Made by a program: the position numbers and the translations under genes
Notes under the pieces: model-generated
What the model was told of the DNA's origin: nothing
The model's database searches: none
The model's input: only the letters and a program-made list of their open reading frames with translations
Shown: piece after piece, positions 26,828-42,098 of the stretch
Layout: each line of letters starts with the position of its first letter
Position numbering within the stretch: the stretch's first letter is position 1
Assembly (NCBI GenBank): GCA_025465475.1
Contig: JAODMR010000136.1
Coordinates: 1-64,000, forward strand
Source: Micrococcaceae bacterium
GTDB taxonomy: Bacteria; Actinomycetota; Actinomycetes; Actinomycetales; Micrococcaceae
DNA: 64,000 bases
Direction: 5' to 3'

Positions 26828-26858
26828 CGGCGAGTGCCTAGGGCGGCGAGTGCCTAGG
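26828..26858. repeat. 16-bp tandem duplication across the epimerase stop codon
   Basis: CGGCGAGTGCCTAGG occurs twice with a 16-bp period. The TAG stop of the minus-strand epimerase gene (26854-26856) lies in the second copy. Confidence 0.75.
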
Positions 26859-27846
26859 CTGACGGATAGAGGTCAGCGGAAATAGGCGGAACCGTCGGTG
26901 CGAGCCGGCCGTTTGCCTGCAGCCAGGCAACCGCCTCCGCCGCAGCCTGCAGCGAGGTGTAGCGCGGCTCGTAGCCGAGCACCTGGCGGGCCTTGGCGAT
27001 GCTCATGGATGGGCTGCGGGCGATGTGTTCCTTCGTGGCCTCCGAGGCTTTAGCGCCGACAGTGGAGGCGAAGTCGGCAAAAGGCAGGAAGCGCAGGTTG
27101 GCGGTTTGGCCGAACCAGCCGGCCACGGCTTCGGCGAAACCGCGCAGTGTGATGGCCCGGTCCGAGACGACGTGGAAGCTTTCCCCAAGGGCCGGCTCCG
27201 GGGCCGTTACGGCGCGTTCAAAAGCCTGGGCGACGTCGTCGGCGTGCACGTGGTGGACCGTTTCCAGCCCGAAGTTGGGCAGCGGGAGTTCCGCGCCGGT
27301 CGCCAGCGCGTTCCAGACGCCCAGGTCAAGGTTGCCGGCAGGATTAATGATCGGCCAGCCAGGGCCACTGATGTGTCCCGGGTGCAGCACGATGGAGGGG
27401 AAGCCGTTCTGCTGCCACTCGTGCCGGAGCAACTGCTCGATGGCGGCCTTTCCCGTGCCGTACGCGCCGAACGGGCGGCGTGGGGCGTCTTCCCGGACGG
27501 GGACTTCAGTGGCCGGTCCATGCACCCAGATGGTTCCGCAGTGCACCAGGAGTTGAATGCGTCCACGCAGTCCGTCCACCAGGTGCTGTGCGGATGCGGG
27601 GGTGAAGCAAAGCATGTCGATGACGACGTCGGGCGCCAGGCTGGCGATTCGTCCGGCGAAGGTTCCGTCGGCGTCCTCGGCTGTGCGGTCCGCTTGGATC
27701 CGCGTGACGTGCGCCCAGGCGGGGTCGGGGTGATAGGGCTCGCGGGTGCCCCGGCTGACGGCGAGGACGTCGTGCCCGGCGCGGACCAGCCGTGGAACCA
27801 GGTAGCCGCCAACGTGACCCGTCGCTCCGATAACCACAATCCGCAT
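26854..27846 (-). CDS. NAD-dependent epimerase/dehydratase-family protein
   Basis: A 330-residue extended SDR with VIGATGHVGGYLVPRL at the N-terminus (GxxGxxG) and YGTGKAAIE as the YxxxK catalytic part (Tyr about 153). It resembles the sugar-nucleotide epimerase group and the isoflavone-reductase-like proteins; the substrate is unknown. It lies 117 bp downstream of the erythrulose-phosphate isomerase gene on the same strand; whether it belongs to that operon is unclear, because a repeat region separates them. Confidence 0.85.
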   Translation of the reverse strand: MRIVVIGATGHVGGYLVPRLVRAGHDVLAVSRGTREPYHPDPAWAHVTRIQADRTAEDADGTFAGRIASLAPDVVIDMLCFTPASAQHLVDGLRGRIQLLVHCGTIWVHGPATEVPVREDAPRRPFGAYGTGKAAIEQLLRHEWQQNGFPSIVLHPGHISGPGWPIINPAGNLDLGVWNALATGAELPLPNFGLETVHHVHADDVAQAFERAVTAPEPALGESFHVVSDRAITLRGFAEAVAGWFGQTANLRFLPFADFASTVGAKASEATKEHIARSPSMSIAKARQVLGYEPRYTSLQAAAEAVAWLQANGRLAPTVPPISADLYPSA

Positions 27847-27925: not shown

Positions 27926-27966
27926 GGTCCGTTGTTAGTCGGTCCGTTGTTACGGCCGGACCGTTA
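27926..27966. repeat. 15-bp tandem repeat ending in a stop codon
   Basis: GGTCCGTTGTTA occurs at 27926 and 27941 (15-bp period), followed by a degraded third copy whose TTA is the complement of the TAA stop of the gene at 27964. Confidence 0.55.
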
Positions 27967-28725
27967 GCGCGGACGGGTTAGGGCCTCGTCCAGCACCTTG
28001 CCCAGGTTCGCCGGGTCGTGGGCAAAGCGACCAAGGAACAGGCCGTCCGCGGCGTCGAGCTGGTTCAGCAGGCCGGGGCCGGCGCTGCCTCCGTACACCA
28101 CCTGCACCTTCTCGGCGGGGGTGGCTTTAAGTTCGCCGCGCAGCGCAGTGATGGTGGCATTGACATAGTCGGCCGGCGCGGGAGCCGGCGCCCCGATGGC
28201 CCACACCGGTTCGTAGGCGAGAATGACCGACGCCGGGTCCACCTGCGCGGACAGCACCTGGCGGGCGCAGAAGGCAGCGGCCTCCTCAGGGGTGCTGCGC
28301 TCGGGTTCGCCCACACACAGCAGCGGGGTCAGGCCGGCTGCCAACGCGGCGGCGGCCTTGCGGGCCACCACCGCGTCGTCTTCGGCAAACTGCATGCGGC
28401 GTTCGGCGTGGCCGATTTCGACCAGGCGAACGCCCAGTTCGGCCAACATGGCTGGGCTGACCTCCCCGGTCAGCGGCCCGTCCCCCCAGGCACAGTTCTG
28501 CGCTCCAAGGTGTACGGGCACGTCCGCCAGGAGCGCCCTTGCGGCGTCCAGCACGGGAAAGGAAGGAATGAGGAACAGCTGGACCGGTCCCCCGGACACC
28601 AGTTCCGGTCGGTGTGCAACAATGTCGCGCACCTGCCGAAGCCACGCGAGGCTGGCGTCATAGCCCAGGTACATCTTGGTGCTGACGCCAATCCAGGTGA
28701 CGCCGGGTTGCCCGGTCTCGACCAT
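27964..28725 (-). CDS. Triosephosphate-isomerase-like enzyme, probable L-erythrulose-1-phosphate isomerase
   Basis: A 253-residue TIM barrel of the TPI family. It keeps Lys in STKMY, the His electrophile and Glu region EIGHAERR, catalytic Glu in AYEPVWAIG and the phosphate loop VYGGSAGPG. The glycolytic GNWKMN motif is changed to GVSTKMY, and the gene sits with an erythrulose-type kinase and an RpiB-like isomerase. These are marks of the LerI/EryH branch, which turns L-erythrulose 1-phosphate into D-erythrulose 4-phosphate. AGGA stands eight bases before the ATG at 28725; an ATG at 28752 is also in frame. Function is inferred from context. Confidence 0.75.
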   Translation of the reverse strand: MVETGQPGVTWIGVSTKMYLGYDASLAWLRQVRDIVAHRPELVSGGPVQLFLIPSFPVLDAARALLADVPVHLGAQNCAWGDGPLTGEVSPAMLAELGVRLVEIGHAERRMQFAEDDAVVARKAAAALAAGLTPLLCVGEPERSTPEEAAAFCARQVLSAQVDPASVILAYEPVWAIGAPAPAPADYVNATITALRGELKATPAEKVQVVYGGSAGPGLLNQLDAADGLFLGRFAHDPANLGKVLDEALTRPR

Positions 28726-28757
28726 GACGATTTTCCTCACTCCTTCCTCCATGCCTG

Positions 28758-30098
28758 CTAGAGCAGTTCGTCAGCCTTGTTGCGCTTGAAGTTTCGCGTC
28801 AGGAACATCATCAGCGCCGCCAGGAACGGCAGCACACCCAGGGCATACACACCGGCCGAGCCGGTATCCGAGGCGGTCATGTCATTGACTGTCGTGCGCA
28901 GGATTGGGGCCACGAAACCACCCAGGTTACCCAGGGAGTTGATCAGGCCGATGCCCGCAGCGGCGGCCGCGCCGGTCAGGAACGCCGTCGGGTAGGACCA
29001 GGTGATCGGACCCACGGCGAGGAAGCTGCACACAGCGAGCGTGATGAAGATCAGGCCAAGCAGCGGAAGGTGGTTGGTGCCTGCCCAGGCGGAGCCGAAG
29101 ATGCACAGGCCCGTGGAGAGAAACAGGACGGTGCCCATGGTGCGCCGCCGGCGGATCGTCGTGGCGGCGCGTCCGAGGAAGTAGCAGGCAAAAATGCCGA
29201 AGAACCACGGGATACCCACCAGCAGGCCCACCTGGATGCCGACCTTTTGGCCGGTCAGTTCAGCAACCTGCTGGGGCAGGTAGAACGTGACGCCGTAGAC
29301 GGCAATCTGCAGGCAGAAATAGATGATGGTGAAGTACCAGACCTTGCCGTTGCGCATCGCAGCCCACACGCCGCTGGGACCGGTTTCGGTGCGGACATTG
29401 TCCTCGAGATCCATGATCTCGACCAGCGCCGCCTTTTCGTCCTTGTCCAGGAAGTTGGCGTTGTGGGGTCCGTTGATCAGGAAGAACAGGCAGGCAATTC
29501 CTGCCAGGACGGCAAGCAGTCCTTCAACGGCGAACATGACCTGCCAGCCGGCAAGTCCGGGGATCTGGTCGCCGATGCTGATCAACCAGCCCGACAGCGG
29601 GCCGCCGATCATCTGGGAGAAGGGCTGCGCCAGGTAGAACAAGGCGAACATCTGCACGCGGACCTTGTTGGGGAACCACTCGGACAGGTACATGATGACG
29701 CCCGGGAACAGACCCGCTTCGGTCACGCCGAGCAGGAAACGCAGGACGATGAAGGACGTTTCGCCCTGCACGAAGGCGAAACAGGCTGCCACGATGCCCC
29801 AGGTGATGGCGATGCGGGCCAACCAGATCTTGGCGCCCACCTTCTGCAGTGCCAGGTTGCTGGGGATTTCGAAGATGGCGTACCCGATGAAGAAGATGCC
29901 GGCGCCCAGGGCGAAGGCCCCGGCCGAGACGCCGCGGTCAGCTGACAGGGCCGCCTGGGCGAAACCGACGTTGGTGCGGTCCAGGAAGGACACAACGTAC
30001 AGGATGACGATCATCGGCATCAGCCGACGGGCCGCCTTGCTGATCGCCGATTTCAGGACCGGCTTTGCCAGCAACTCCTGACTGGTGGGAATGGACAT
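28758..30098 (-). CDS. MFS transporter, anion:cation symporter (ACS) type
   Basis: A 446-residue carrier with 12 hydrophobic segments. SFLDRTNVGFAQAALSAD near the N-terminus and GVTEAGLFPGVIMYLSEWFP after helix 4 are signatures of the ACS family, whose members import organic and sugar acids such as galactonate, tartrate or phthalate. In this operon it is expected to bring in the sugar acid or a related substrate. The next gene (TPI-like) begins 32 bp after its stop. Confidence 0.9.
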   Translation of the reverse strand: MSIPTSQELLAKPVLKSAISKAARRLMPMIVILYVVSFLDRTNVGFAQAALSADRGVSAGAFALGAGIFFIGYAIFEIPSNLALQKVGAKIWLARIAITWGIVAACFAFVQGETSFIVLRFLLGVTEAGLFPGVIMYLSEWFPNKVRVQMFALFYLAQPFSQMIGGPLSGWLISIGDQIPGLAGWQVMFAVEGLLAVLAGIACLFFLINGPHNANFLDKDEKAALVEIMDLEDNVRTETGPSGVWAAMRNGKVWYFTIIYFCLQIAVYGVTFYLPQQVAELTGQKVGIQVGLLVGIPWFFGIFACYFLGRAATTIRRRRTMGTVLFLSTGLCIFGSAWAGTNHLPLLGLIFITLAVCSFLAVGPITWSYPTAFLTGAAAAAGIGLINSLGNLGGFVAPILRTTVNDMTASDTGSAGVYALGVLPFLAALMMFLTRNFKRNKADELL

Positions 30099-30168
30099 TT
30101 AAAACTCCTCTTTGAGTTTCGGCTGCTGATGGGCTTCCGCCGAAGGTCTAGATACTTCAGGTCGTACT

Positions 30169-30204
30169 GGGGTCGTGCACAGTGAAGGGGTCGTGCACAG
30201 TGAA
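30169..30204. repeat. 18-bp perfect tandem duplication with degenerate flanking copies
   Basis: GGGGTCGTGCACAGTGAA occurs twice in a row and two more diverged copies follow to about 30245. It is in the 227-bp gap between the MFS gene and the small membrane protein gene, inside the operon. The rest of the gap shows no gene. Confidence 0.75.
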
Positions 30205-30325
30205 CGGGTCGTGCAGGTAAAGCTGGTCGTGCGGGTAGAACTGGTCTGCGGGCTCTGCGGATGGTCGTACTGATGCCGCCCGAAGGCCGGGGCGCTGACA
30301 GCGCCCCGGCCTAGCGAACAGATGC

Positions 30326-30430
30326 CTAGCGGGAGGTGGCAATCAGGACAACACCGACGATGCAGATCACCACGCCGAGGGCGAGGTACAGCAACCGTCC
30401 CCGATTCCATTTTGCTGGCTGCTGGGCCAT
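30326..30430 (-). CDS. 34-residue membrane microprotein
   Basis: The frame reads MAQQPAKWNRGRLLYLALG and continues with a helix of V, I, C, G, L ending in ATSR. It has a short basic N-terminus and one membrane helix (residues about 13-31). AGGAGG stands six bases before the ATG, the best binding site in this operon, and the gene lies only 10 bp after the SDR stop. It may be a partner of the MFS carrier encoded next. No family recognised. Confidence 0.65.
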   Translation of the reverse strand: MAQQPAKWNRGRLLYLALGVVICIVGVVLIATSR

Positions 30431-30440
30431 GGTGGTCCTC

Positions 30441-31208
30441 CTAGTGCATGTAAAGTCCACCGTCGACATTCAGGGTCTGCCCTGAGATGTAGCCGGTGTC
30501 CTCGCTGATGAGGAAGCTGATGGCCGCAGCGATGTCGCGCGGCGTGCCCACCCGGTTCACTACGAGGTCCTCGGCCATGGCGGCCTTGCGCTCCTCGGTG
30601 AGGGTGCCGCCCATGATGTCCGTGTCGATGGGGCCGGGTGAGATGGCGTTGACGGTGATGTTGAACGGGCCGAGTTCGCGGGCCACGGACCGGGTCAGGC
30701 CGATGACACCGGCCTTGGCCACGGAGTACGGCGTCTTGCTGTAGGTGCCGCCGCCGCGCTGGGCGGAGACGGAGGAGATGTTCACGATACGGCCGATGCC
30801 GTTCTTCACGAGCGACTCGGCGACCCGCCGGGTCGCGTAGTGCACACCGTTGAGGTTGATGTTCAGCACGCGGTCCCATTCCGCAGCCTCGAGTTCAAGG
30901 TACGGGACAGGCGAGCTGACACCGGCCACGTTGGCCAGGGCCACGAGCTGGGGCAGGGCTGCTTCGAGTTCGTCGACGGCGGACCGGACGGAGGCTTCGT
31001 CGGCGACGTTGGCTCCGGCGCCGGCGGCCTGGACGCCGTAAGTGTCGGCGACTTCCTTGGCCACGGCCTTGCAGGCGGCGTCATCCAGGTCGATGATGCC
31101 GATGTTCCAGCCTTGCTCGGCCAGGTAGTTCACGGTGGCCCGGCCGATGCCCCGGGGGGACACGGCGCCGGTCACAATGACTGTTCTTTCGGTGGGAAAT
31201 TCAGACAC
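30441..31208 (-). CDS. Short-chain dehydrogenase/reductase
   Basis: A 255-residue classical SDR: cofactor motif TGAVSPRGIGRA, NVAG, catalytic Ser in NISSVSA, and YSVAKAG as YxxxK, with the usual C-terminal SGQTLNVDGG. It would oxidise a polyol or sugar alcohol, or reduce a ketose; in tetritol pathways such an enzyme makes erythrulose from threitol. The exact substrate is not shown. It lies 31 bp downstream of the 3-hydroxyacyl-CoA-dehydrogenase-like gene. Confidence 0.9.
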   Translation of the reverse strand: MSEFPTERTVIVTGAVSPRGIGRATVNYLAEQGWNIGIIDLDDAACKAVAKEVADTYGVQAAGAGANVADEASVRSAVDELEAALPQLVALANVAGVSSPVPYLELEAAEWDRVLNINLNGVHYATRRVAESLVKNGIGRIVNISSVSAQRGGGTYSKTPYSVAKAGVIGLTRSVARELGPFNITVNAISPGPIDTDIMGGTLTEERKAAMAEDLVVNRVGTPRDIAAAISFLISEDTGYISGQTLNVDGGLYMH

Positions 31209-31239
31209 GTGGGGTCCTTTGGAAAGTGGAAGGCTGGAA

Positions 31240-32190
31240 TTATTGGATCGGCGCAGGGCCGAGGTCTTCGATGAGCTTCTGCATCAGGACGTAGGCCTTG
31301 TTGCGGTAGGCGATCAGTTCAGGAATCCGCTCGGCCGGAACGTTCAGGAAGCCGGCGCCGGTCTTGGTGCCCAGTTTGCCCTGCGAGACCAGGTCGCTGA
31401 GGATTTTTGGCGTCGCGAAGCGTTCGGGGAAGCCGGTCTGCAAGGACTTGTAGCAGAAGTCGTACACGTCAAGGCCTGCCATGTCGGCGATGGCGAACGG
31501 GCCGAAGAACGGCAACCGGAAGCCGAAGGTGGTGCGGACCAGGGTGTCGATGTCCTCGGCGGTGGCTGTCCCGTCTTCGACCAGCTGGGTGGCCTCGTGG
31601 AACAGGGCGTACTGCAGCCGGTTGAGCACGAAGCCGGTGACGTCCTTTACGACGGCGGTGGACTTGCCCGATTCGTGGACCAGTTCGCGGGCGGCGGTGA
31701 CGGTGGCTTCGGCGGTGCCGGCGTGGGGGATGATCTCGACCCCCGGGATGAACGGCGACGGGTTGCTGAAGTGGACGCCGAGGAACCGCTCCGGGTTGGT
31801 CACGGCTGAGGCCATGTCACCGATGGAGATGGTGGAGGTGTTGGAGCCGATGATCGCGTCAGGGCGGGCGGCGGCGCTGATCTGGGCAAGCGTGTCGTGC
31901 TTGATGGCCAGCACTTCGGGGACGGCTTCCTCGATGAACTCAGCTTCCCGCACGGCTTCGGCCAGGCTCGGAGCAGCCCACAGATTCTGCTGCAGCGTTT
32001 CGGTGGCGCCGGCCGGGAACAGTCCGTCGCGGACAAAGTCGCGGGACTCCTCGATCAGGCGGTTGAGGTTCTTTTCTGCTACCTCGGCGCTCACGTCGGC
32101 CAAAGCCACGCGGGCGCCGGCGAGGGCCAGCACCTGAGCGATGCCGCCTCCCATGTAGCCTGAGCCGATAACGGCGATGTTCCTGGTCAT
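31240..32190 (-). CDS. 3-hydroxyacyl-CoA-dehydrogenase-family protein, probable sugar-acid 3-dehydrogenase
   Basis: A 316-residue protein with NAD motif VIGSGYMGGGIAQ, substrate-side SNTSTISIGDMA, the catalytic His region GVHFSNPSPFIPGVEII and the C-terminal domain start VKDVTGFVLNRLQYAL. The family also includes enzymes that act on free acids, such as L-gulonate 3-dehydrogenase (CRYL1 type). No fatty-acid genes are near, while a TIM-barrel enzyme and erythrulose-phosphate genes are in the same operon, so oxidation of an aldonate at C3 is the better guess. This is inference. Confidence 0.85.
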   Translation of the reverse strand: MTRNIAVIGSGYMGGGIAQVLALAGARVALADVSAEVAEKNLNRLIEESRDFVRDGLFPAGATETLQQNLWAAPSLAEAVREAEFIEEAVPEVLAIKHDTLAQISAAARPDAIIGSNTSTISIGDMASAVTNPERFLGVHFSNPSPFIPGVEIIPHAGTAEATVTAARELVHESGKSTAVVKDVTGFVLNRLQYALFHEATQLVEDGTATAEDIDTLVRTTFGFRLPFFGPFAIADMAGLDVYDFCYKSLQTGFPERFATPKILSDLVSQGKLGTKTGAGFLNVPAERIPELIAYRNKAYVLMQKLIEDLGPAPIQ

Positions 32191-32194
32191 GGCC

Positions 32195-32713
32195 TTAGCC
32201 CTCTTTCAGTTCGGGTGTCTCGGTGTCGTCGGCGACGTCCTGCAGCGTTTCGTAGGAGCCGATCGCGTCAACCTTTGCCGCCGAGGCGGAGGTGGTGTCG
32301 AAGCGGTAGCCCAGCCATTCCTTGACCAGCCGCTTGGCCAGTTCCAGCCCGATGACACGCTGGCCCATAGTCAGGACCTGGGCGTCGTTGCTGAGTACGG
32401 AGCGTTCCACGGAGTAGCTGTCGTGTGCGGTGACGGCACGAATGCCGGGCACCTTGTTTGCGGAGATGGCAACGCCCAGTCCCGTGCCGCAGATCAGCAG
32501 GGCACGGTCGGCCTCACCGGCCGCGACCTTGCGGGCGGCGGTGACGGCCAGGTGCGGGTAGGCGGTCGAGTCGTCGGGTCCCACTCCGACGTCGACAACC
32601 GAAGCGACGCGGTCGTCCGCTTCCAGCAGTGCCTTGAGGGCGTTTTTGTATTCGACGCCGGCTTCGTCGTTTCCGACGACAATGCGCCAGCCGTTGCTTG
32701 TGGCTTCAGCCAT
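32195..32713 (-). CDS. RpiB/LacAB-family isomerase, probable erythrulose-4-phosphate isomerase
   Basis: A 172-residue RpiB-type isomerase. Conserved residues are visible in [10 protein letters not shown] at the start, [21 protein letters not shown] (active-site Cys) and [19 protein letters not shown]. With the kinase and TPI-like genes it corresponds to EryI/DerI, converting D-erythrulose 4-phosphate to D-erythrose 4-phosphate, which enters the pentose phosphate pathway. Four base pairs separate it from the dehydrogenase gene and 11 bp from the kinase gene. Confidence 0.85.
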
Positions 32714-32724
32714 GGTGTTGCTCC

Positions 32725-34452
32725 TTAGTGGTCAGCAGATTTGGTGTTCGGCAGGGATTCGAAGGTCGCCGCGAGGCCTTCGGTGATGAGGCCGAAGGAC
32801 ACGGCACCGGGATCCGGGTGTCCCAGGCTCTTTTCCGCCAACGGCCGCGCCCTGCCCTTCTTCGGGCTCAGGGAGGCTGTCTCCTCGGCGGCCAGGGTGG
32901 CTGCGGCTGCGGCAGCCTTGAAGGCCTGCACCGGCGGAGTTCCTGCACCGTGTTCTGTGCTGAAGGCCGCTGCGAAGGGCAGCAACGCGTCAACCATGGT
33001 CTTGTCTCCGAGCTCAGCCTTGCCCAGGGTGGTGATGGCCGAAACGAACGCCTCGACTGCGGCGGCGGCGTCCTGGGCGGTGTAGCTCTCCCGGTTGCCC
33101 AGCGCATCGCCGACCGCGATCAGTGCCGTGCCCCAGAGCGCTCCGGAGGTGCCTCCAGCCTTTTCACTCCACGCCTCACCGGCGCGGACGAGGACGTTCC
33201 GCACCCCGGTCCCGCGGGCGGCGCGGGCCGCGGCTGCTGCCGCTTCGCCGCCGCGGCGCATCCCGATGCCGTGGTCGCCGTCACCGGCGATGGCGTCCAG
33301 CTGTCCGAGTGCTTCCTCGTGTTCTTCAATCACTGAGCGTACGGTTTCCAGCGCCGCCACGGCCTGGTTGCCCAAGGCGATGGCAGCCGGGGTGCCCTGC
33401 TCCGTTTCCTGAATGGCCTCCGTGAGCTGGGTCGTGTCGCGGGCCGCGCGCCGGGCCATGCTCCCCTTGCGGTACGCCGGAGTGTCGGCCGGGGCAGCCC
33501 AGTACTGTTCGAGTTCATCGTCGAGCCACAGCAGGGTCAGTGACAGGCCCGACATATCCAGGCTCGTGACCAGCTCGCCGCATTCGGGCTCCACGATCTC
33601 CAGCCCGGCAGCAGTGAGCAGCTTTTCGATCTTGCCGAACAGGAGGAACAGCTCGTCGTACTTCACCGTCCCGAGCCCGTTCACGATCGGCACCACCCGG
33701 GTCCCGGCGTCGTCAGGCTTGTCCTGCAGCAGCCGCTCCACCAGCAGCTGCGCCAGTTCGGAGGCGGTGGGCATGTCGTGCTCGGAAATGCCGGGTTCGC
33801 CGTGGATGCCCAGTCCGAGGGACATCTGGCCTTCGGGAACGGTGAACAGCGGCTCGCTGGCGCCCGGCAGGGTGCAACCGTCGAAGGCCACGCCCAGGGA
33901 GCGGGTGCGGTAATTGGTCTTGATGGCTAACCGCTCCACCTCGTCCAAGTTCAGGCCGGCTTCCGCGGCGGCGCCGGCAACCTTGAATACAGTCAGGTCA
34001 CCGGCGATTCCGCGCCGCTTTTCCAGCTGGTCAACCGGCGCGCTGGCGATGTCGTCGGTGACCAGGACGGTCCGGGTCTCGATGCCTTCGGCGTTGAGTC
34101 TCTGCTGGGCCTGGCCAAAGTGCAGCACGTCGCCGGCGTAGTTGCCGTAGCTCAGCAGCACGCCTCCGCCCATGCTGGCCGCCTTGGCCACCCGGTAGAC
34201 CTGGCCCGCGGCCGGGGACGCGAACAGGTTTCCGCAGGCCGCCGCGGCAGCCAATCCGGCGCCAACCAGGCCGGCAAAGGCCGGATAATGTCCGGACCCG
34301 CCGCCAATGACGAGGGCGACGGAACCTTCCGCCATTTCGGTGGACCGGATCACCCCGCCGTCGACGAGGGCGACGTATTGCCTGTTAGCAGCCGCGAAGC
34401 CTTCCAAAGCCTCATCGGCGAAGGCTGCGGGATCATCGTAAAGAGTTGTCAT
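32725..34452 (-). CDS. DhaK-DhaL fusion kinase, probable erythrulose kinase
   Basis: A 575-residue ATP-dependent kinase. The N-terminal DhaK domain (about 1-330) has [12 protein letters not shown] and the His that binds the ketose covalently in GLGIHGEPG. The C-terminal DhaL domain (about 360-575) has the Asp cluster [17 protein letters not shown]. The fused layout is that of dihydroxyacetone kinases and of the LerK/DerK erythrulose kinases. The flanking isomerases argue for L-erythrulose as substrate. Start ATG with GAGGAACC before it. Confidence 0.85.
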
Positions 34453-34485
34453 GGTTCCTCGTTGACTCCAGGGACGGGCAGGGCT

Positions 34486-35499
34486 TTAGGCTGACGCAGC
34501 GGAGGTGACAGGTGCCAGGCGCCCCTGGGCCACCTTGCTGGTGCCGAGCGTGTAGTTTTCCGTTTTGGGCAGCACCTGCGAGCGGAGGTAACGCTGGTTG
34601 CTGGCGGAGACGCTGAGGCCGTCGCCACCGTAGTGCTCCGTGCAGATGATGCCCTGGAAGCCGACGGAAATGGCTGTGCGGAATGCTTCGCGGTAGTTGA
34701 TCAGGCCGCTTTCCATCGGGGCGGGAATGGCCACGTAGGAATCGCGGGCCACGTCCTCGTCGCGGGAGTAGTTCTTCACGTGCCAGTAGTTGGAGTACGG
34801 CAGCGTCTTGGCCACCAGTTCCTGCCACGATTCAATGGGCCGGTGCAGGCGGATCAGGTTCCCGATGTCGGGGTTCAGTCCGACGTTGGTCAGGCCGATG
34901 TCCTGCACCAGCTGGACGGCCGAGTCAGCCGTGCCCAGGTAGGTGTCTTCGTACATTTCCAGGGAAACGAGCAACCCCACCTCAGCGGCGTGATGTCCCA
35001 GTTCCTGCAGCCGGGACACTGCCTTGCCCCAGACTTCCTTGTCCCCGATCGGGTCCTTGTGCCCCTCAACGGTCCAGAACCACAGCTGCTTCTGCTGTTC
35101 CGCGGTGAGCGCCTGGTGCAGGCCGAAGGAGACAACCTCGCAGCCCAGCCGTGCGGCGGCGTCGAGGGTGCGGTGACTGTAGGCCAGGTTGTCTTCCCAG
35201 TTCCTGGCGTCGATGACACTGCGTCGGATGGCCGAGATGACGGGCAGTCCCGTTCCGGCGGCATCAGCGGCGGCCTTCAGGTCGTCCAGCCGGCTGTCCG
35301 ACAGGTCGCCGGGGCGGACCCAGCTGTCGGTCAGGTCGGCGTTGGTGAAACCGGCGTCGCGGACTTCCTGGAACGCTGCCTGCCAGACGGCGGGATCGGC
35401 GTCGTTGATGGCGCCGCCCTGCGGGTCAGTGGCGGAGAACTGCAGCAGGGCCGCAGAGATGGGCCAGGTCTCTGCCGTGTATTTTGTCGGGTTCGACAT
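34486..35499 (-). CDS. Xylose-isomerase-like TIM-barrel enzyme, possible 3-oxo-acid decarboxylase
   Basis: A 337-residue protein of the sugar phosphate isomerase/epimerase fold. The four usual metal ligands can be placed in LEMYEDTY, LNPDIGNL, WHVKNYS and ICTEHYGG. This family includes isomerases and also 3-oxo-isoapionate decarboxylase (OiaC), which releases CO2 and L-erythrulose. Because the next genes are exactly those that use L-erythrulose, an OiaC-like role is attractive but unproven; an isomerase role is possible. GGAG precedes the ATG, and a repressor site lies 36 bp upstream. First gene of the operon. Confidence 0.75.
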   Translation of the reverse strand: MSNPTKYTAETWPISAALLQFSATDPQGGAINDADPAVWQAAFQEVRDAGFTNADLTDSWVRPGDLSDSRLDDLKAAADAAGTGLPVISAIRRSVIDARNWEDNLAYSHRTLDAAARLGCEVVSFGLHQALTAEQQKQLWFWTVEGHKDPIGDKEVWGKAVSRLQELGHHAAEVGLLVSLEMYEDTYLGTADSAVQLVQDIGLTNVGLNPDIGNLIRLHRPIESWQELVAKTLPYSNYWHVKNYSRDEDVARDSYVAIPAPMESGLINYREAFRTAISVGFQGIICTEHYGGDGLSVSASNQRYLRSQVLPKTENYTLGTSKVAQGRLAPVTSAASA

Positions 35500-35534
35500 G
35501 AGTCACTCCATTGTGGTTAGAACTGGATCGTGTT

Positions 35535-35544
35535 TCCTATAGGA
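35535..35544. promoter_or_regulatory. GntR operator, site A
   Basis: TCCTATAGGA, a perfect 10-bp palindrome, lies 36 bp upstream of the first gene of the kinase/isomerase operon. The same core occurs at 36304 and 38803, each time before a gene of this cluster. Confidence 0.7.
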
Positions 35545-35606
35545 TTCACCACTCCGACGGGCCTGTCAAGACCCACCCGCCGGGACGCGGCATCCCCGGC
35601 CCCGAC

Positions 35607-36296
35607 TTAACCGTGCTCGACCACGTCGGAAATGGCGCGTTTGCGCACCCCTGCCAGATGGGTCGCCATCGCCGCAGCGGCCTGTTCCGGGTCCTGGTCC
35701 ACGAAGGCCTGCAGGACGGCCGTATGCTCCCTGATGGCATGGTCCGCGTCCGTGACACCCAGGCCGCCAAAGAAGCGGAACCGTTGGATCTGTCCACCGA
35801 GTGCATTGAAGGCGGACAGGATGAACTGGTTGCCGGCGTTCTCTGCGATCAGGCGGTGGAACCGCTCGTCAGCCTCCCAGTAGTCGCGGAATTCCGCGAA
35901 GGAGCCGCCCCGGGGCGCGTTTTGAAGGTCCACAATGGATTGCTCCAGCGCCTGGTTGAGTTCGGGAGTGGTCCGTTCGCACGCGCGGCGGGCGTTGACC
36001 GGTTCAATCACCAACCGGGCGTCCATGAGCTCGGCCAGGTCATCGATGCTGAACAGCGGCGCCACGCGGTAGCCGCGCATGGCAACCCGCCGCACCATGC
36101 CGGTTGCCTCCAGGCGTGCCAGCGCTTCCCGGACTGGTGTGGGTGAGACGTCCAGGTCACGGGCGATGCCGTCGATGCTGATGCCGGCCCCCGCGGCGAG
36201 GCGTCCGTCGATGAGGGATGCGAGGAGTTCTTCGTAGACATGGTCGGCCAGTACCTGCCGCGCAATGGTCCTGGGCTTATCGGTTTGTACGGCCAT
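35607..36296 (-). CDS. GntR/FadR-type repressor with FCD domain
   Basis: A 229-residue regulator with an N-terminal winged helix (DGIARDLDVSPTPVREALARLE, residues about 42-63) and a C-terminal helical FCD domain. Metal-binding His residues are in EADERFHRLIA, AIREHTAVLQA and MATHLAGVR, so it likely binds a carboxylated sugar or acid through a metal. It lies in the middle of the cluster and is expected to bind the CCTATAGG palindromes, including one that overlaps its own ribosome binding site. Confidence 0.9.
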   Translation of the reverse strand: MAVQTDKPRTIARQVLADHVYEELLASLIDGRLAAGAGISIDGIARDLDVSPTPVREALARLEATGMVRRVAMRGYRVAPLFSIDDLAELMDARLVIEPVNARRACERTTPELNQALEQSIVDLQNAPRGGSFAEFRDYWEADERFHRLIAENAGNQFILSAFNALGGQIQRFRFFGGLGVTDADHAIREHTAVLQAFVDQDPEQAAAAMATHLAGVRKRAISDVVEHG

Positions 36297-36303
36297 GGCT
36301 GCA

Positions 36304-36313
36304 TCCTATAGGA
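36304..36313. promoter_or_regulatory. GntR operator, site B, overlapping the repressor's ribosome binding site
   Basis: TCCTATAGGA begins 7 bases upstream of the repressor ATG. Read on the minus strand its right arm supplies the AGGA Shine-Dalgarno sequence seven bases before the start. Confidence 0.7.
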
Positions 36314-36332
36314 GTGCTGTTCCCAGCCATAG

Positions 36333-36370
36333 GGCCTTGTCCCTTCACGATCAGGCCTTGTCCCTTCACG
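36333..36370. repeat. 21-bp tandem repeat across a stop codon
   Basis: GGCCTTGTCCCTTCACG occurs at 36333 and 36354 with a 21-bp period, and a partial third copy begins at 36375. The TGA stop of the gene at 36366 lies in the second copy. Confidence 0.8.
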
Positions 36371-37400
36371 TTCGGGCCTTGGCCGCCCAGGCGGCGGTAT
36401 CGAAGACTTCCGGATTCAGCACGTGCTCGGGCCGCCGTCCGGCAGCGACGTCGGTGATGGCCTGCAGCGCGCTGGCCGACACGTCGCGGGTGAAGTCGGC
36501 GGTCCAGCACAGGGAGTGCGGAGTGAGCACCACATTGTCCATGCCAAACAGCTCATCCTCCGGATGCAACGGCTCGGGGTCGAAGACGTCCAGTCCGGCT
36601 CCGGCGATGCGTCCGGTCCGCAGGGCGGTGCGCAGGGCCTCGGTGTCGACCAGGCGGCCCCGGCCGATGTTGATCACGTAGGCATGGGGCTTCAGGGCAG
36701 CCAAGCGTTCGGCGTTGATCAGCCGGTCGGTTTCGGGGGTCAGCGCGGCACAAAGAATCAGGTAGTCGGACTCAGCCAGGAGTTCCTCCAGGCTGACGAG
36801 CTGGACGCCCAGCTCCTTGGCCTCCGGGTGCCTGCCGCTGCGGTTGGTCCCCACCAGCCGGACCCCGAGCGGCGTGAGCAGCCGCGCCAGCTCCGCCCCC
36901 ACGCTCCCGAAGCCGACGATTCCCACGGTTTGGCCGTCAAGGGCCGCGCCGCGGTACTTTCCGCGGTCGGTCCAGTTGGACGCACGGGTCAGCCGGTCCT
37001 TGGGCAGCAGGTTGGACGCCAATGCCAGCAGCAGGGTCAGTCCCGCCACGGCGAGCGGCCTGCGGACCGCTGTGGGGGTGTTCGTGACCACCACCCCTGC
37101 CCGGGTACAGGCGGCGAGGTCGATGGTGTCGTAGCCCGCCCCGAACCGGGCCACGTGGCGCAGGTTCGGGGCGTTGTCCACGGTTCCCGCCCCGAAGCCG
37201 ATGTGGCCCAAGGACAGGACGGACTGCACGCCCTGAAGCTGATCGGTCGGAATGGGATCGTGGTAGCCGGGTAACACCTGCCAAAAGATACCGGCATCGG
37301 TCAGGCGGTCCAGGCCCAGGTCGCCGTGAATGGAACTGCCGTCGGGTTGAACGGCGTCAGCGGTGACGGCCACCCGGTACTGTTGCGGGCCGGCAGTCAT
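36366..37400 (-). CDS. D-isomer-specific 2-hydroxyacid dehydrogenase
   Basis: A 344-residue NAD(P)-dependent oxidoreductase of the phosphoglycerate/glyoxylate reductase family. GIVGFGSVGAELARLL is the nucleotide site; the catalytic Arg is in NIGRGRLVDT, the Glu in VFDPEPLHPEDEL and the His in LTPHSLCW. It probably acts on a hydroxy acid made or used in this pathway. Its start overlaps the MFS stop by 4 bp (ATGA), so the two are one transcription unit. Confidence 0.9.
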   Translation of the reverse strand: MTAGPQQYRVAVTADAVQPDGSSIHGDLGLDRLTDAGIFWQVLPGYHDPIPTDQLQGVQSVLSLGHIGFGAGTVDNAPNLRHVARFGAGYDTIDLAACTRAGVVVTNTPTAVRRPLAVAGLTLLLALASNLLPKDRLTRASNWTDRGKYRGAALDGQTVGIVGFGSVGAELARLLTPLGVRLVGTNRSGRHPEAKELGVQLVSLEELLAESDYLILCAALTPETDRLINAERLAALKPHAYVINIGRGRLVDTEALRTALRTGRIAGAGLDVFDPEPLHPEDELFGMDNVVLTPHSLCWTADFTRDVSASALQAITDVAAGRRPEHVLNPEVFDTAAWAAKART

Positions 37401-38740
37401 CGCTCACCACCGGCGTTGAGGGCACCAGCCGGAGCGTTCGTTCCGGGAATGGGGCGCCGTACCAGGACGGTGTAGGCCACCGCTGCGAGCGCGGCAATAA
37501 TGCCGCCGATGACGAAGGAGAGGGTGTAGGACCCGGTCGCGTCGGCGATCACTCCGGTCAGCAGCGGGGCGAATGCGCCACCGAAGTAGCCTCCGAAGTT
37601 TTGGATTGCCCCGACTGAGGCGACCTGGGCGTTCTGGACGACGTCCCCGGGCATGGCCCAGGCTGCTGCCTGCATGGTTGCGACGAAGCCCAGGGCCACG
37701 GTCATCACCGCAATGGTGAGCGGCAGGGAATCCACGAACGGAATGAGGCAGATGAGGACACCGGCAACGACGGCGGCAATCGACATCACGTGGCGCTTGG
37801 CCGTGAGGGGGCTTTTGCCGGACCGGCGGGAGTAGCGGGTCATGACCCAGCCACCGGTGATCCCGAGAATGGCGGCACCCAGGTAGGGAATGGCTGCCAA
37901 CCAACCCGAACCAGCAATGCTCGCGCCCCTGGCTTCCTGCAGGTAAAGCGGCAGGAACACGATAAAGATGTTCCAGATCCAGATGACACAGAAGAAGCCG
38001 GCCATCATTCCCCAGATCTGCCGGTGCCGGAAGAGCCCGAACCACGAGGTTCGGCCGGCCTGGAGTTTCTGGCTGGCACGTTCCCGCTCGATGTAGTCCA
38101 GTTCCTCGGAGCTGATCCGCTGGTGCGCCTCGGGGCTTCGGTAGAACAGGAAGAACGCGACGGCCAGGACCAGTCCTGCCAGCCCGAGCACCACGAAGAT
38201 TGCCTGCCAGCCGAAGGCGATCATGATGGCTGTAAGGATTGGCGGGGCGATGGCGGGGCCCCACTTGGAACCGCTGTCCCAGATGGCCGTGGCCTGTCCG
38301 CGTTCCGCGCGGGGGAACCAGTCTGCCGTCAGCTTGGCCGATGCGGGCCCGTTGGGCGCTTCGGCAATGCCCAGCAGGACCCGGAAGGAGAGGAACTGCC
38401 AGAGGCGGCTTCCCACCGCCATGAGCGCGGTGGCGATGCTCCAGCAGGCGATGGCCAGAAAGTACATGCGCCGGGCGCCGAGCTTATCGACCAGCCATCC
38501 GGCCGGCAGTTGGGCGAAGGCGTAGGTCCAGGAAAATACCGTGCCCAGCAGGCCAATGTCAGTCCTGGTCATGCCGAAGGTCTTGATCAGTTCCGGGGCT
38601 GCGATGGAAACAGCGCTACGGTCCATGTAGTTGATGATGCCTGCGGCCAGGGCCCAGCCGAGGATCCACCAGCGGAGGTTCCTGATGGTCCGGCGGCCCG
38701 CCGAGGCCCGGGTCTTCGTTGCTACGGTGCTTGTGTCCAC
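37397..38740 (-). CDS. MFS transporter, ACS type (second carrier)
   Basis: A 447-residue carrier with 12 membrane segments. GIINYMDRSAVSIAAP and GIAEAPNGPASAKLTADWFPR are ACS-family signatures. The GTG at 38740 has AAAGGAG upstream; the longer frame up to 38920 would translate through the operator. It differs in sequence from the carrier at 28758, so the cluster has two distinct importers, perhaps for different acids. Head of the operon with the 2-hydroxyacid dehydrogenase. Confidence 0.9.
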   Translation of the reverse strand: MDTSTVATKTRASAGRRTIRNLRWWILGWALAAGIINYMDRSAVSIAAPELIKTFGMTRTDIGLLGTVFSWTYAFAQLPAGWLVDKLGARRMYFLAIACWSIATALMAVGSRLWQFLSFRVLLGIAEAPNGPASAKLTADWFPRAERGQATAIWDSGSKWGPAIAPPILTAIMIAFGWQAIFVVLGLAGLVLAVAFFLFYRSPEAHQRISSEELDYIERERASQKLQAGRTSWFGLFRHRQIWGMMAGFFCVIWIWNIFIVFLPLYLQEARGASIAGSGWLAAIPYLGAAILGITGGWVMTRYSRRSGKSPLTAKRHVMSIAAVVAGVLICLIPFVDSLPLTIAVMTVALGFVATMQAAAWAMPGDVVQNAQVASVGAIQNFGGYFGGAFAPLLTGVIADATGSYTLSFVIGGIIAALAAVAYTVLVRRPIPGTNAPAGALNAGGER

Positions 38741-38802: not shown

Positions 38803-38812
38803 CCCTATAGGA
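38803..38812. promoter_or_regulatory. GntR operator, site C
   Basis: CCCTATAGGA differs by one base from sites A and B and keeps the CCTATAGG core. It lies 63 bp upstream of the MFS start. The rest of the 350-bp gap (38741-39091) holds a terminator, a 14-bp repeat array and no gene that I can support. Confidence 0.65.
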
Positions 38813-39343: not shown

Positions 39344-42058
39344 TTACACCGGATCCTCGGGAATGACCTGGTCCGGTTGCTTATCCGGACGCCACCCCCG
39401 CCACACCGGATGGCGCAGCCTGCCGTCGCCGGTTTTCTCCGCGTAGCTCACCTCACCCACCAATGACGGCGTGATCCAGTGGGCGTCGGCCGCGTCGGCC
39501 CGTGGCACGCCGGCCAGCGGACTGGTGGTACGCGCCATGCGCCTGAACCTGGCAGCCATGCCGGTCAGGTCGGCGTCGCTGAATCCGGTCCCGACCCTGC
39601 CGACGTAGCGCAATTCCCCCTCGACGGGTACGCCCAGCAGCAGGGAACCGATTGTTGCCGCCCGGTTGCCGTTGCCTGTCCGCCACCCGGCCACCACCAC
39701 GTCCTGGGTGCGGCTGTTTTTGATTTTCAGCCAGGACCGGCTGCGCCGGCCGGGCAGGTAGGTGCTGCTGCTTTCCTTCGCCATAATGCCCTCAAGCTCC
39801 AGCGCCTGGCTGGTGGCCACGGCATCCTCGATGCTGCCCTCCAGCAGGGGTGACAGTTGGACGTTCGCATCGGGATGGGCGCTCGTGGCGGCCGCCAGCA
39901 GCATGTCCAGCACCTGGCGGCGGGAACGGAAGGGCTCGTCCACCAAGGACATGCCGTTGAGCTGCAGCAGGTCAAAGATCATGTATGCCACCGGAACGTT
40001 GCGCACCGCCCGTTCAATGTCGGCCGGCCTGGTGAGTTTCATGCGGGATTGCAGCAGGCGGAAGTCGGGCCGGCCCGACTTGTTCAGGGCGACGATTTCG
40101 CCGTCAAACACGGCTGAATCCGCTCCCGCGCTCCGGGCCAACGGCGGCAGGGTCCGCAGGTCCGGGTAACCGGCAGTGATGTCGTTCCCGTTCCGGCTGA
40201 GCAGGCGCAGTGTATCGCCGCTGAGCACGGCAACGGCCCGCATGCCGTCCCACTTCATCTCGAAGTCCCAGTTTCCGTCACCGACGTCCCCTGCCGTGCC
40301 GATGGACGCCAGCATCGGTTCGATGTAGTCGGCTGCGACCAGGCCGGGGGCCGGGGCCGCGGCGTTTACCGGGGCCGCGGCCGGCGCCAGAGCCAGCGCC
40401 GGTCCGGATTCCTCCGGCATGTCGGAGGCGGACGCAGTTTCCGGGGCCGGTCCGGATACCTCCGGGTCTTCGGCGGCCGCCCTCGCCGGCTGCGGCGCGC
40501 TCCCGGCCTCGTCCCAGCTGTGCGGCTGCTGGTCCTTCATCAGGTGCATCAGCCAGTTCTTTTCAGCTTTCGGATCCGCTCCGCCCGTGTGGATCAACGC
40601 CACCCGCCGGGGACCCCCGAGACCCCCGTCGCGGGTGCCGTGCAGGGTGACGATGACCTCCTTGCCGTCCCGCCATTTCTCCAGGTCGTAGGTGCCGCTG
40701 TCCCAGATGGTGACCTCACCACCGCCGTATTCGCCCTTGGGAATGCTGCCGGAAAAGCTGGCGTATTCCAGCGGGTGGTCTTCGGTCTGCACGGCAAGGT
40801 GGTTTTGCCGTGGTGTTTCCGGCACTCCCTTGGGGACAGCCCAGGAGACCAGCACGCCGTCGCGCTCCAGCCGGAAGTCGTAGTGTAGCCGGCGGGCGTG
40901 GTGTTCCTGGATCACGAAGCTGCGGCCTTCCGAGACAGGGGCAACACCGGCGGGAACGGGTTCGGGCGTCCTGTCCGGGTCGCGCATGCTGCGGTACGTG
41001 CGCAGCCGGTCGGCTGGTTCTGCGTCCCCGGCTTCCGCGCGAGGCTGGGGGCTGCCGTGTGATTTCCGGTTCCCGCCCGGCGTTTCTCCGGATGTACCGC
41101 CGGATGCACCGCCGGATGCACCGCCCGGCGGTACAAGGTCCGCGGCGGGGGTCAGGCCCGCTGCGACCCGGTCAAGCACCTGCAGGTAGTCCAGTTGGGC
41201 CAAGCCGGGGTCCTCCAGTTCCTCCCAGGTGCGGGGCGCCGCGACCCACGGGCGCAGCTTGCCGCGCAGCGAATAAGGGCAGATGGTCGTCTTTGCCGCG
41301 TTGTTTTGGCTCCAGTCGAGCAGGACCTTGCCCGCGCGAAGGACCTTTTTCATGTCACTGACGATCAGGTCCGGATAGTCGCTTTCCAGCGCCCGCGCGA
41401 GCTCATGGGCCACAGCACTGACCTGGTCCGAGGTTTGGGAGCCGTCCAGGTGTGCGTACAGGTGGATGCCCTTGCTGCCGCTCGTGACGGGATGGGGGGT
41501 CAAACCCATGTCCGTCAGGATTGCCCGCGCCAGCCGTGCCACCTCCGCGCACTCGGGTAACCCGGCGCCCTCCCCCGGGTCAAGGTCCAACACGAGCCGG
41601 TCCGGGTTCAGCTGCAAGCCCTCGGCGCTGAAGCGCCACTGCGGTACGTGCAGTTCCAAGGCTGCGTTCTGTCCCAGCCACGCCAGTGAGGCGGCATCGT
41701 TGATCACCGGGTACGTGTTCACGTGGTCCTTGTGCTGCAGGACGTAACTGTGGACCCAGGAGGGGGCATGTTTTTCCAGGTTTTTCTGGAAAAACACCTG
41801 CCCCGGCTCCTGGCCGGTGCCCACCCCATGCACCCACCGTTTACGGGTGGCCGGCCGGTCCCGGGCGAAGGGCAGGAGCACCGGTGCCACCGTCGCCAGG
41901 TACGCCAGCACCTCCCCCTTGGTGGTGCCCGTCGCCGGATACAGGACCTTGTCCAGGTTGGTCAGCGTCAGACGGTGCCCGTCGATGCTGACCACCTGTT
42001 TCCTGTCCTGCACCCCGGTTCCGGCCATGGGGTCAGTCTGCTGGAATTTTCCCGGCAT
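39344..42058 (-). CDS. ligD: Multifunctional ATP-dependent DNA ligase LigD
   Basis: A 904-residue non-homologous end-joining enzyme with domains in mycobacterial order. The polymerase/primase domain is at about residues 25-305 (LVLDLDPGEG metal site, SGSKGIHLYAHLDG). The 3'-phosphoesterase domain follows at about 385-520 (FVIQEHHARRLHYDFRLE, KGEYGGGEVTIWD). The ATP-dependent ligase domain is at about 590-900, with KWDGMRAVAV holding the adenylated Lys and FDGEIVAL. Flexible Gly/Ser and Pro/Ala linkers separate the domains. It is divergent from ku, 40 bp away, so both share a promoter region. Confidence 0.95.
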   Translation of the reverse strand: MPGKFQQTDPMAGTGVQDRKQVVSIDGHRLTLTNLDKVLYPATGTTKGEVLAYLATVAPVLLPFARDRPATRKRWVHGVGTGQEPGQVFFQKNLEKHAPSWVHSYVLQHKDHVNTYPVINDAASLAWLGQNAALELHVPQWRFSAEGLQLNPDRLVLDLDPGEGAGLPECAEVARLARAILTDMGLTPHPVTSGSKGIHLYAHLDGSQTSDQVSAVAHELARALESDYPDLIVSDMKKVLRAGKVLLDWSQNNAAKTTICPYSLRGKLRPWVAAPRTWEELEDPGLAQLDYLQVLDRVAAGLTPAADLVPPGGASGGASGGTSGETPGGNRKSHGSPQPRAEAGDAEPADRLRTYRSMRDPDRTPEPVPAGVAPVSEGRSFVIQEHHARRLHYDFRLERDGVLVSWAVPKGVPETPRQNHLAVQTEDHPLEYASFSGSIPKGEYGGGEVTIWDSGTYDLEKWRDGKEVIVTLHGTRDGGLGGPRRVALIHTGGADPKAEKNWLMHLMKDQQPHSWDEAGSAPQPARAAAEDPEVSGPAPETASASDMPEESGPALALAPAAAPVNAAAPAPGLVAADYIEPMLASIGTAGDVGDGNWDFEMKWDGMRAVAVLSGDTLRLLSRNGNDITAGYPDLRTLPPLARSAGADSAVFDGEIVALNKSGRPDFRLLQSRMKLTRPADIERAVRNVPVAYMIFDLLQLNGMSLVDEPFRSRRQVLDMLLAAATSAHPDANVQLSPLLEGSIEDAVATSQALELEGIMAKESSSTYLPGRRSRSWLKIKNSRTQDVVVAGWRTGNGNRAATIGSLLLGVPVEGELRYVGRVGTGFSDADLTGMAARFRRMARTTSPLAGVPRADAADAHWITPSLVGEVSYAEKTGDGRLRHPVWRGWRPDKQPDQVIPEDPV

Positions 42059-42098
42059 CGCCAGAGCTTGTAAGCAGGCTTAGTGTTAGCGTGGTTTC

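Follow-up and report, generated by a model that had tools for sequence, protein, structure and literature searches.

Which substrate is served by an operon that joins a kinase and two isomerases of the L-erythrulose type to a dehydrogenase of the 3HCDH family and a xylose-isomerase-like TIM barrel? Such an operon lies on the minus strand, at positions 27964 to 38740, of a 64,000-nucleotide stretch (the window) of contig JAODMR010000136.1 from a Micrococcaceae bacterium (GCA_025465475.1). We infer, with a probability of roughly 0.6 for the reading as a whole, that it encodes a route in which an aldonate is oxidized at C-3, decarboxylated to L-erythrulose, and carried on to D-erythrose 4-phosphate.

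In the proposed route, an operon carrier would import the aldonate, which most likely is a linear L-aldonate of five carbons. The 3HCDH-family enzyme (316 amino acids [aa]; 31240 to 32190; PF02737 and PF00725), a putative aldonate 3-dehydrogenase, would use NAD to oxidize it at C-3, giving a β-keto acid, and the TIM barrel (337 aa; 34486 to 35499; PF01261), a candidate metal-dependent β-keto-acid decarboxylase, would convert this to L-erythrulose. The DhaK-DhaL fusion (32725 to 34452; PF02733 and PF02734), a putative LerK-like L-erythrulose 1-kinase, would form L-erythrulose 1-phosphate, from which a protein resembling triosephosphate isomerase (TPI; 27964 to 28752; PF00121) would make D-erythrulose 4-phosphate, and an RpiB-like isomerase (32195 to 32713; above the TIGR02133 cutoff, 202 versus 168 bits) would make D-erythrose 4-phosphate. 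A GntR/FCD regulator (35607 to 36296; PF00392 and PF07729) would repress the genes through the palindrome TCCTATAGGA.

Gene content and conservation of the operon

The original prediction described this region as one operon, and every gene that it named is present on the minus strand. The likely order of transcription is a major facilitator superfamily (MFS) carrier, MFSu (37397 to 38740), and a D-2-hydroxyacid dehydrogenase (36366 to 37400; PF02826) whose gene overlaps the end of the MFSu gene; then the GntR/FCD regulator; and then the TIM barrel, DhaK-DhaL, the RpiB-like protein, the 3HCDH enzyme, an accessory short-chain dehydrogenase/reductase (SDR; 30441 to 31208; PF13561), a second carrier, MFSd (28758 to 30098), and the TPI-like protein. 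The D-galactonate transporter subfamily TIGR00893 is nearest for both carriers, at 259 and 279 bits against a cutoff of 395, and we take both to be of the anion:cation symporter (ACS) type. An epimerase-like gene at 26854 to 27846 was kept outside the unit; used as a query, it matched none of the genes listed for the related loci. On the other side, divergent LigD and Ku genes, both above curated cutoffs, adjoin the operon (39344 to 42953) and form an unrelated end-joining repair pair.

We compared 81 near loci, comprising the window and the best 80 of 549 TIM-barrel relatives from a scan of named genomes; among these best 80, nearly all hosts are Arthrobacter, Pseudarthrobacter, Paenarthrobacter, or Cryobacterium. 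Adding 16 diverse actinobacterial loci and 5 alphaproteobacterial loci, the latter picked from 94 plasmid records, gave a sample of 102 loci (numbered with the prefix L). Presence was counted by tblastn with set thresholds, since the script-made gene calls miss some genes; the thresholds overlook the TPI-like gene in L124, L126, and L128, RpiB in L119, the SDR (48%) in L120, and a GntP carrier and an LtnD-like gene in L097. Left out of the counts were L010, L116, and L117, taken as duplicates of L059, L076, and L056; L098, a further Sinorhizobium meliloti; and L133, in which a TIM fragment (29% of the query) lies beside denD and the stretch covered has no PdxA annotation.

Among the near loci, the TIM barrel is accompanied by DhaKL in 80/81, by 3HCDH in 78/81, and by RpiB in 77/81, and on these counts we regard the four genes as the core. 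Contig ends account for the loss of DhaKL in L037 and of 3HCDH in L037, L049, and L079; RpiB is missing in the same three loci and in L080, where no contig end explains the loss. The regulator is present in 72 near loci, the TPI-like gene in 70, the SDR in 68, and MFSd in 66, while the 2-hydroxyacid dehydrogenase (8/81) and MFSu (7/81) are rare. Since the partners recur in the window and 80 related loci, the arrangement is not a product of chance. The TIM-barrel family is sparse beyond the near group, occurring in 4 of 296 genomes sampled from the phylum and 19 of 394 from the class (the window's own genome is counted in both). It appears that the gene set is conserved, and uncharacterized, in many soil actinobacteria.

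Some loci place the core in other surroundings. In L077 (1405 to 14299), and likewise in L085, L086, and L088, a LacI regulator, a sugar ABC importer, two Gfo/Idh genes, an IolE-like barrel, and ThuA precede TIM barrel, DhaKL, RpiB, and 3HCDH, so that the core is joined to a sugar or glycoside module and GntR, operator, SDR, MFS carrier, and LerI are missing. L127 (4615 to 13484) has TIM barrel, DhaKL, and RpiB between an ABC importer that looks BMP-type by eye and an adenosine deaminase above its NCBIfam cutoff.

Exchange of dehydrogenases and carriers

The partner dehydrogenase of the TIM barrel is usually 3HCDH; in 8 of the 102 loci its place is taken by a member of the PdxA family, to which it is unrelated and which is absent from the window locus, and the two never occur together (0/102). 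Both families are NAD dependent and oxidize a hydroxyl β to a carboxyl or thioester group. In a tree of 34 TIM barrels (13 of the near loci, the 16 diverse loci, and the 5 alphaproteobacterial loci), the starred branches require that the PdxA label was gained or lost at least four times. Plasmids of Sinorhizobium, Shinella, and Pararhizobium have the order PdxA, tripartite tricarboxylate transporter, TIM barrel, DhaKL, and Paracoccus has TIM barrel, DhaKL, PdxA, transporter, with no 3HCDH in any of them. Within the Actinobacteria, L119, L122, and L124 encode PdxA and a tricarboxylate transporter beside TIM barrel, DhaKL, RpiB, and TPI. The two families thus seem, from gene neighborhoods, to stand in for each other beside the TIM barrel. 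L097 has an L-threonate-dehydrogenase-like gene instead.

Carriers vary as well, among acid types: galactonate-type MFS, GntP (L012, L130, L072, and also L097), and tripartite tricarboxylate transporters. A sugar acid had been predicted as the substrate, and these exchanges among acid-related families support it. Because the dehydrogenase families and the acid carriers swap, the substrate is probably a 3-hydroxy acid, i.e., an aldonate; we consider this the strongest evidence for the proposed route.

Several further arrangements were seen around these genes. L121 (1638 to 9046) has an isocitrate/isopropylmalate-dehydrogenase-family gene (PF00180) near the TIM barrel, with weak tricarboxylate transporter matches, a possible further exchange. 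L119 (13040 to 14772) has, by eye, an apparent second, separate DhaL and DhaK pair after the tricarboxylate transporter. A gene for an SAF-domain protein (annotated as SAF, FlgA, or homoserine dehydrogenase) lies beside PdxA-TctCBA in L131 (17045 to 18442), L165 (12219 to 13613), and L166 (5758 to 7137), the latter two being assigned to the kind of L131 from their size and position alone.

The best solved relative of the window 3HCDH is the FHMPC 5-dehydrogenase 4om8 (165 bits, residues 1 to 308), a pyridine-carboxylate dehydrogenase that by its name acts on a non-CoA acid. The earlier label CRYL1-type, which denotes 3HCDH proteins that oxidize L-gulonate at C-3, is not supported: λ-crystallin (117 bits, residues 4 to 247) ranks below 4om8 and below acyl-CoA dehydrogenases. 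Membership in the FHMPC family proper was not found either, the score against NF042925 (214 bits) being under the curated cutoff of 500. Residues S119, H140, E152, and N190 are invariant across 14 rows; we take them to be catalytic and shared over the 3HCDH superfamily, so that they do not discriminate against acyl-CoA enzymes. A more distant homologue, in L012, scores higher with a 3-hydroxybutyryl-CoA dehydrogenase model than with the FHMPC model (220 versus 196 bits), and for this reason CoA substrates stay conceivable by sequence alone. The window's own genome also encodes a 54% identical 3HCDH paralogue on contig C65 (L013, 7835 to 10949), part of a series of genes that also includes an SDR and a histidinol-dehydrogenase-like gene; this series may resemble those of dihydroxypropanesulfonate catabolism. 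Given this other context, the 3HCDH branch may serve more than one substrate.

Operator and regulon

Exact copies of TCCTATAGGA lie in the TIM-barrel promoter (35535 to 35544) and just upstream of gntR (36304 to 36313), and a copy with one mismatch lies upstream of MFSu (38803 to 38812). These three copies compare with 0.25 expected in the window when one mismatch is allowed. TTGACA, by its sequence a likely −35 box, precedes the TIM-barrel operator by 19 bp (35564 to 35569, minus strand).

In 74/80 loci the operator lies no more than 150 bp ahead of the TIM-barrel gene, and the six loci that lack it (L038, L047, L077, L085, L086, and L088) are all without this GntR. L023 retains the operator while the adjacent regulator is gone; the sequences of L062 and L065 begin immediately ahead of the TIM barrel and do not reach the regulator region. 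In the 16 diverse loci, the exact operator occurs in 8, and each of 29 other palindromes with shuffled half-sites occurs in at most 2. We conclude that the GntR/FCD protein is the likely regulator of the operon, acting through this site; repression as the direction is the presumed mode.

The site also helps to define the regulon. In L093, the 3HCDH gene is separated from the core by about 7 kb and has a one-mismatch operator 86 bp upstream, with a divergent gene beyond; since even this distant gene has its own operator, 3HCDH very likely belongs to the regulon. Likewise, an operator precedes MFSu in the window and six other loci, which links MFSu and the 2-hydroxyacid dehydrogenase with the regulon in the loci that have them. 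In the window genome these two, the latter a putative 2-keto-acid reductase, would probably admit a related 2-keto acid to the route. Among the PdxA loci, L119 and L122 have the exact operator and L124 a one-mismatch copy; with the same operator at 3HCDH and PdxA loci, one regulator seems to control both dehydrogenase versions in the Actinobacteria. Three further exact operators, in two other genomes (L145 to L147), have unrelated genes as neighbors and were regarded as chance occurrences.

The TIM barrel: decarboxylase or epimerase

The window TIM barrel belongs to the same family as 5TNV, a solved xylose-isomerase-like barrel of Mycobacterium smegmatis with bound Mg (44% identity, Z = 28.5), whose title names no function. 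The proposed metal ligands E181, D211, H240, and E288, whose roles we assume, are invariant in 24 rows. Behind 5TNV, epimerases, IolE, and others tie at Z = 19.5 to 21.9, with a query AlphaFold model of pLDDT only 69, and the fold matches fail to separate epimerase, dehydratase, or other functions. No decarboxylase title occurs among 50 fold-match rows, which proves nothing.

A signature around the proposed ligands, LE-x-YE / H[VIM]K[DN][FY] / E[HQ][YW], is present in the window family (4/4 rows of A3 and 23/24 of A4, the H-x-K motif of L085 failing the pattern) and in 4/4 TIM barrels coupled to PF16896, which we take to be the ApnO family. It is absent from one IolE-like protein, the single control; the signature was picked after viewing the TIM-barrel alignment. 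As a stand-in for OiaC, which has a xylose-isomerase-like fold, we used the PF16896-coupled barrel. The window protein is 25% identical to it over 125 aa, with hhalign at 96%, consistent with the two being remote relatives, not orthologues. NF042435, at first guessed to be OiaC, is QuiC.

The most serious competitor, which we nevertheless think unlikely, is that the barrel is a ketose 3-epimerase or isomerase that adjusts the erythrulose isomer for the kinase, decarboxylation being spontaneous or taking place on the dehydrogenase. Ketose 3-epimerases head the Foldseek list behind 5TNV, D-tagatose 3-epimerases are, again behind 5TNV, the best sequence matches of the L012 relative (E = 0.00097), and PdxA enzymes are known to release CO2 unaided. 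However, a barrel that made D- from L-erythrulose would leave LerI redundant, yet the TPI-like gene is kept in most near loci; the signature agrees with the ApnO-coupled barrel; and a 3-residue gap is needed to align the LNRFE stretch of the epimerases.

Proposed steps from L-erythrulose to erythrose 4-phosphate

LerK, LerI, and DerI take L-erythrulose to erythrose 4-phosphate, and with EltD they constitute a tetritol route, as described in PMC10733421. The window operon has the same trio together: a DhaK-DhaL fusion, a TPI-like protein, and an RpiB-like protein. The fusion is above the NF011049 cutoff (754 versus 492 bits) and has the kinase motifs GIHGEPG and GDGDHG. For the RpiB-like protein, DerI (NF051858) is second in the list of matches, at 154 bits against a cutoff of 240. 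Expected motifs are present in all three proteins, except for the altered NWKMN of the TPI-like one; we assume the usual roles for these motifs.

That TPI-like protein is not the housekeeping enzyme. The operon TPIs (18 rows) fall on one side of a 100/100 branch that separates them from seven housekeeping TPIs, one of them from the window's own genome, and the Asn of the housekeeping NWKMN motif is replaced in the operon proteins. In L012, where TPI, RpiB, DhaKL, and GntR lie beside GntP, 3HCDH, and a TIM barrel nearly identical to 5TNV, the best solved relative of the TPI-like protein is 11ef, titled L-erythrulose-1-phosphate isomerase (237 bits), and proteins named TPI reach at most 147 bits.

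The M. smegmatis route, encoded by adjacent genes and reportedly worked out by Huang in 2015 (a study that PMC10733421 cites), likewise employs one kinase and two isomerases of these kinds to convert L-erythrulose to erythrose 4-phosphate. It differs in starting from a tetritol, whereas the L-erythrulose of the window operon would come from a sugar acid. The downstream half that the original prediction assigned to the operon is well supported by these sequence comparisons. A kinase and two isomerases acting on a C4 ketose agree with the decarboxylation of a C5 acid; if the LerI-like enzyme is needed, that acid should be L-configured at C-4.

In a second alternative, a C4 acid (a tetronate) would be oxidized at C-3 and decarboxylated to dihydroxyacetone for DhaKL, with the TPI-like protein a true TPI. 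The names DhaKL and TPI fit this scheme, L-threonate-dehydrogenase-like and OtnK-like (DUF1537-kinase-like) genes occur in 6/102 loci (gene clusters add L081 and L084), and OtnK and OtnC are above their cutoffs in Paracoccus L131. We judge it improbable nonetheless: it leaves the core gene RpiB without a function, the operon TPI is distinct from the housekeeping TPI of the genome and has lost the NWKMN Asn, and OtnK and OtnC would already serve tetronates.

Relation to the apionate and tetritol routes

The D-apionate route through ApnO and OiaC, reportedly described by Carter in 2018, likewise yields L-erythrulose for the same kinase and isomerases by an oxidoreductase and a TIM barrel. It differs in its oxidoreductase family, in its remotely related barrel, and in sharing no operator with the window operon. 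The original prediction paired a non-ApnO dehydrogenase with the barrel, and the window agrees: the 3HCDH enzyme is there, and PF16896 has no match in its genome, nor in the Mycobacterium-like genomes G074 and G560.

PF16896 genes occur in 5/21 genomes searched, and their products resemble ketol-acid reductoisomerase in 3 of 4 scanned. The gene overlaps that of a 264- to 265-aa TIM barrel in 4/5 loci (L161, 4231 to 8096; L164, 3714 to 8217; L160, 6623 to 8274; L163, 8070 to 9748). DhaKL and RpiB accompany it in 2/5 (L161 and L164, the latter also with a TPI-like gene). These four loci are probable ApnO-OiaC apionate operons.

All five PF16896 genomes keep a window-type TIM barrel elsewhere (L011, L093, L121, L122, and L123). 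D-Apionate had been named as a possible substrate, with 3HCDH replacing ApnO and the barrel acting as OiaC, and it would suit the downstream enzymes, which match those of that route, as well as the common barrel superfamily and signature. Because the ApnO-like genes lie in separate loci of genomes that have the window-type barrel, in four cases with their own OiaC-like barrel, apionate is an unlikely substrate. TCCTATAGGA is missing from all five PF16896 loci, and C-3 of apionate is tertiary and allows no simple oxidation; the identities of ApnO and OiaC are assumed here. The operon probably has a different substrate and follows the same chemical logic. An apiose gene cluster of a Rhodobacteraceae strain is described in PMC11747546, where the relevant portion makes no mention of erythrulose.

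Least likely of all is an operon for erythritol or threitol, in which the SDR would make L-erythrulose, as the tetritol route from EltD to DerI (PMC10733421) might suggest, and 3HCDH and TIM barrel would act otherwise: by the tblastn thresholds, the SDR is missing in 13/81 near loci, 10 of them with 3HCDH, and in 13/16 diverse loci, 8 of them with 3HCDH or PdxA, and several of the carriers are acid types.

DISCUSSION

In type the operon is a familiar catabolic one, to which a plausible new entry route is added, probably a further, non-apionate acid entry into the L-erythrulose branch. A literature search, which did not reach the two closest studies, found no account of this route.

Several observations weigh against the proposed route. 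The window TPI-like protein matches 3s6d, a "putative triosephosphate isomerase," first and 11ef second. The operator is absent, even with one mismatch, from 7/16 diverse actinobacterial loci, and all 5 alphaproteobacterial loci lack RpiB, TPI, and operator. In L121, L127, and L129 the TIM barrel is accompanied by neither 3HCDH nor PdxA, PdxA and its carrier also occur without TIM barrel or DhaKL (L165 and L166), and some loci (L125 and L128) lie beside sugar ABC importers and glycosidases, not acid carriers. No LerI-like gene was found in the genome assemblies searched for L077, L085, L086, and L088 (4/4), and no reported substrate, enzyme activity, or expression data for the operon came to light. 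Because these four loci keep the core without a LerI-like gene, L-erythrulose is not a universal intermediate, and D-series acids may be used at L077-type loci.

Which acid would the window operon take up? The 2-hydroxyacid dehydrogenase under operator control fits acids from vitamin C breakdown, and the L-threonate-dehydrogenase-like and DUF1537-kinase-like genes are a hint as well. A Variovorax PdxA relative, 47.5% identical to that of Shinella, lies beside L-rhamnonate-dehydratase-like and cytochrome b561 domain genes, and the PdxA family presumably includes the 2-carboxy-L-lyxonate decarboxylase of ascorbate catabolism. Other neighbors hint at other substrates: an arabinofuranosidase in L125, GH39 in L128, an adenosine deaminase with an importer judged nucleoside-type by eye in L127, and the Gfo/Idh-ThuA sugar clusters of the L077 type. 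L-Xylonate or L-lyxonate, both products of vitamin C breakdown, is our guess. The Variovorax cluster itself (L168, 7013 to 12588, on a plasmid) comprises TctC, PdxA, an L-rhamnonate-dehydratase-like gene, a DHDPS-family gene, and the cytochrome b561 domain gene, and resembles an ascorbate catabolic cluster; an ascorbate pathway is known from Ralstonia.

We speculate further, as a doubtful extension, that the operon belongs to a pathway, common in soil, that uses the C5 acids formed when plants break down vitamin C. L-Xylonate or L-lyxonate, and 2-keto-L-xylonate by way of the 2-hydroxyacid dehydrogenase, would be oxidized at C-3 and decarboxylated to L-erythrulose by a new decarboxylase family typified by 5TNV, the oxidation step having been taken over repeatedly by unrelated dehydrogenases.

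If the proposed route is correct, it would give a function to the solved structure 5TNV and to a gene set of many soil actinobacteria and, in another form, of rhizobial plasmids. The L-erythrulose branch would gain an entry that differs from those for tetritols and apionate, and the dehydrogenase exchanges would illustrate plainly how unrelated families of enzymes can repeatedly come to supply the same reaction while a single regulator stays conserved.

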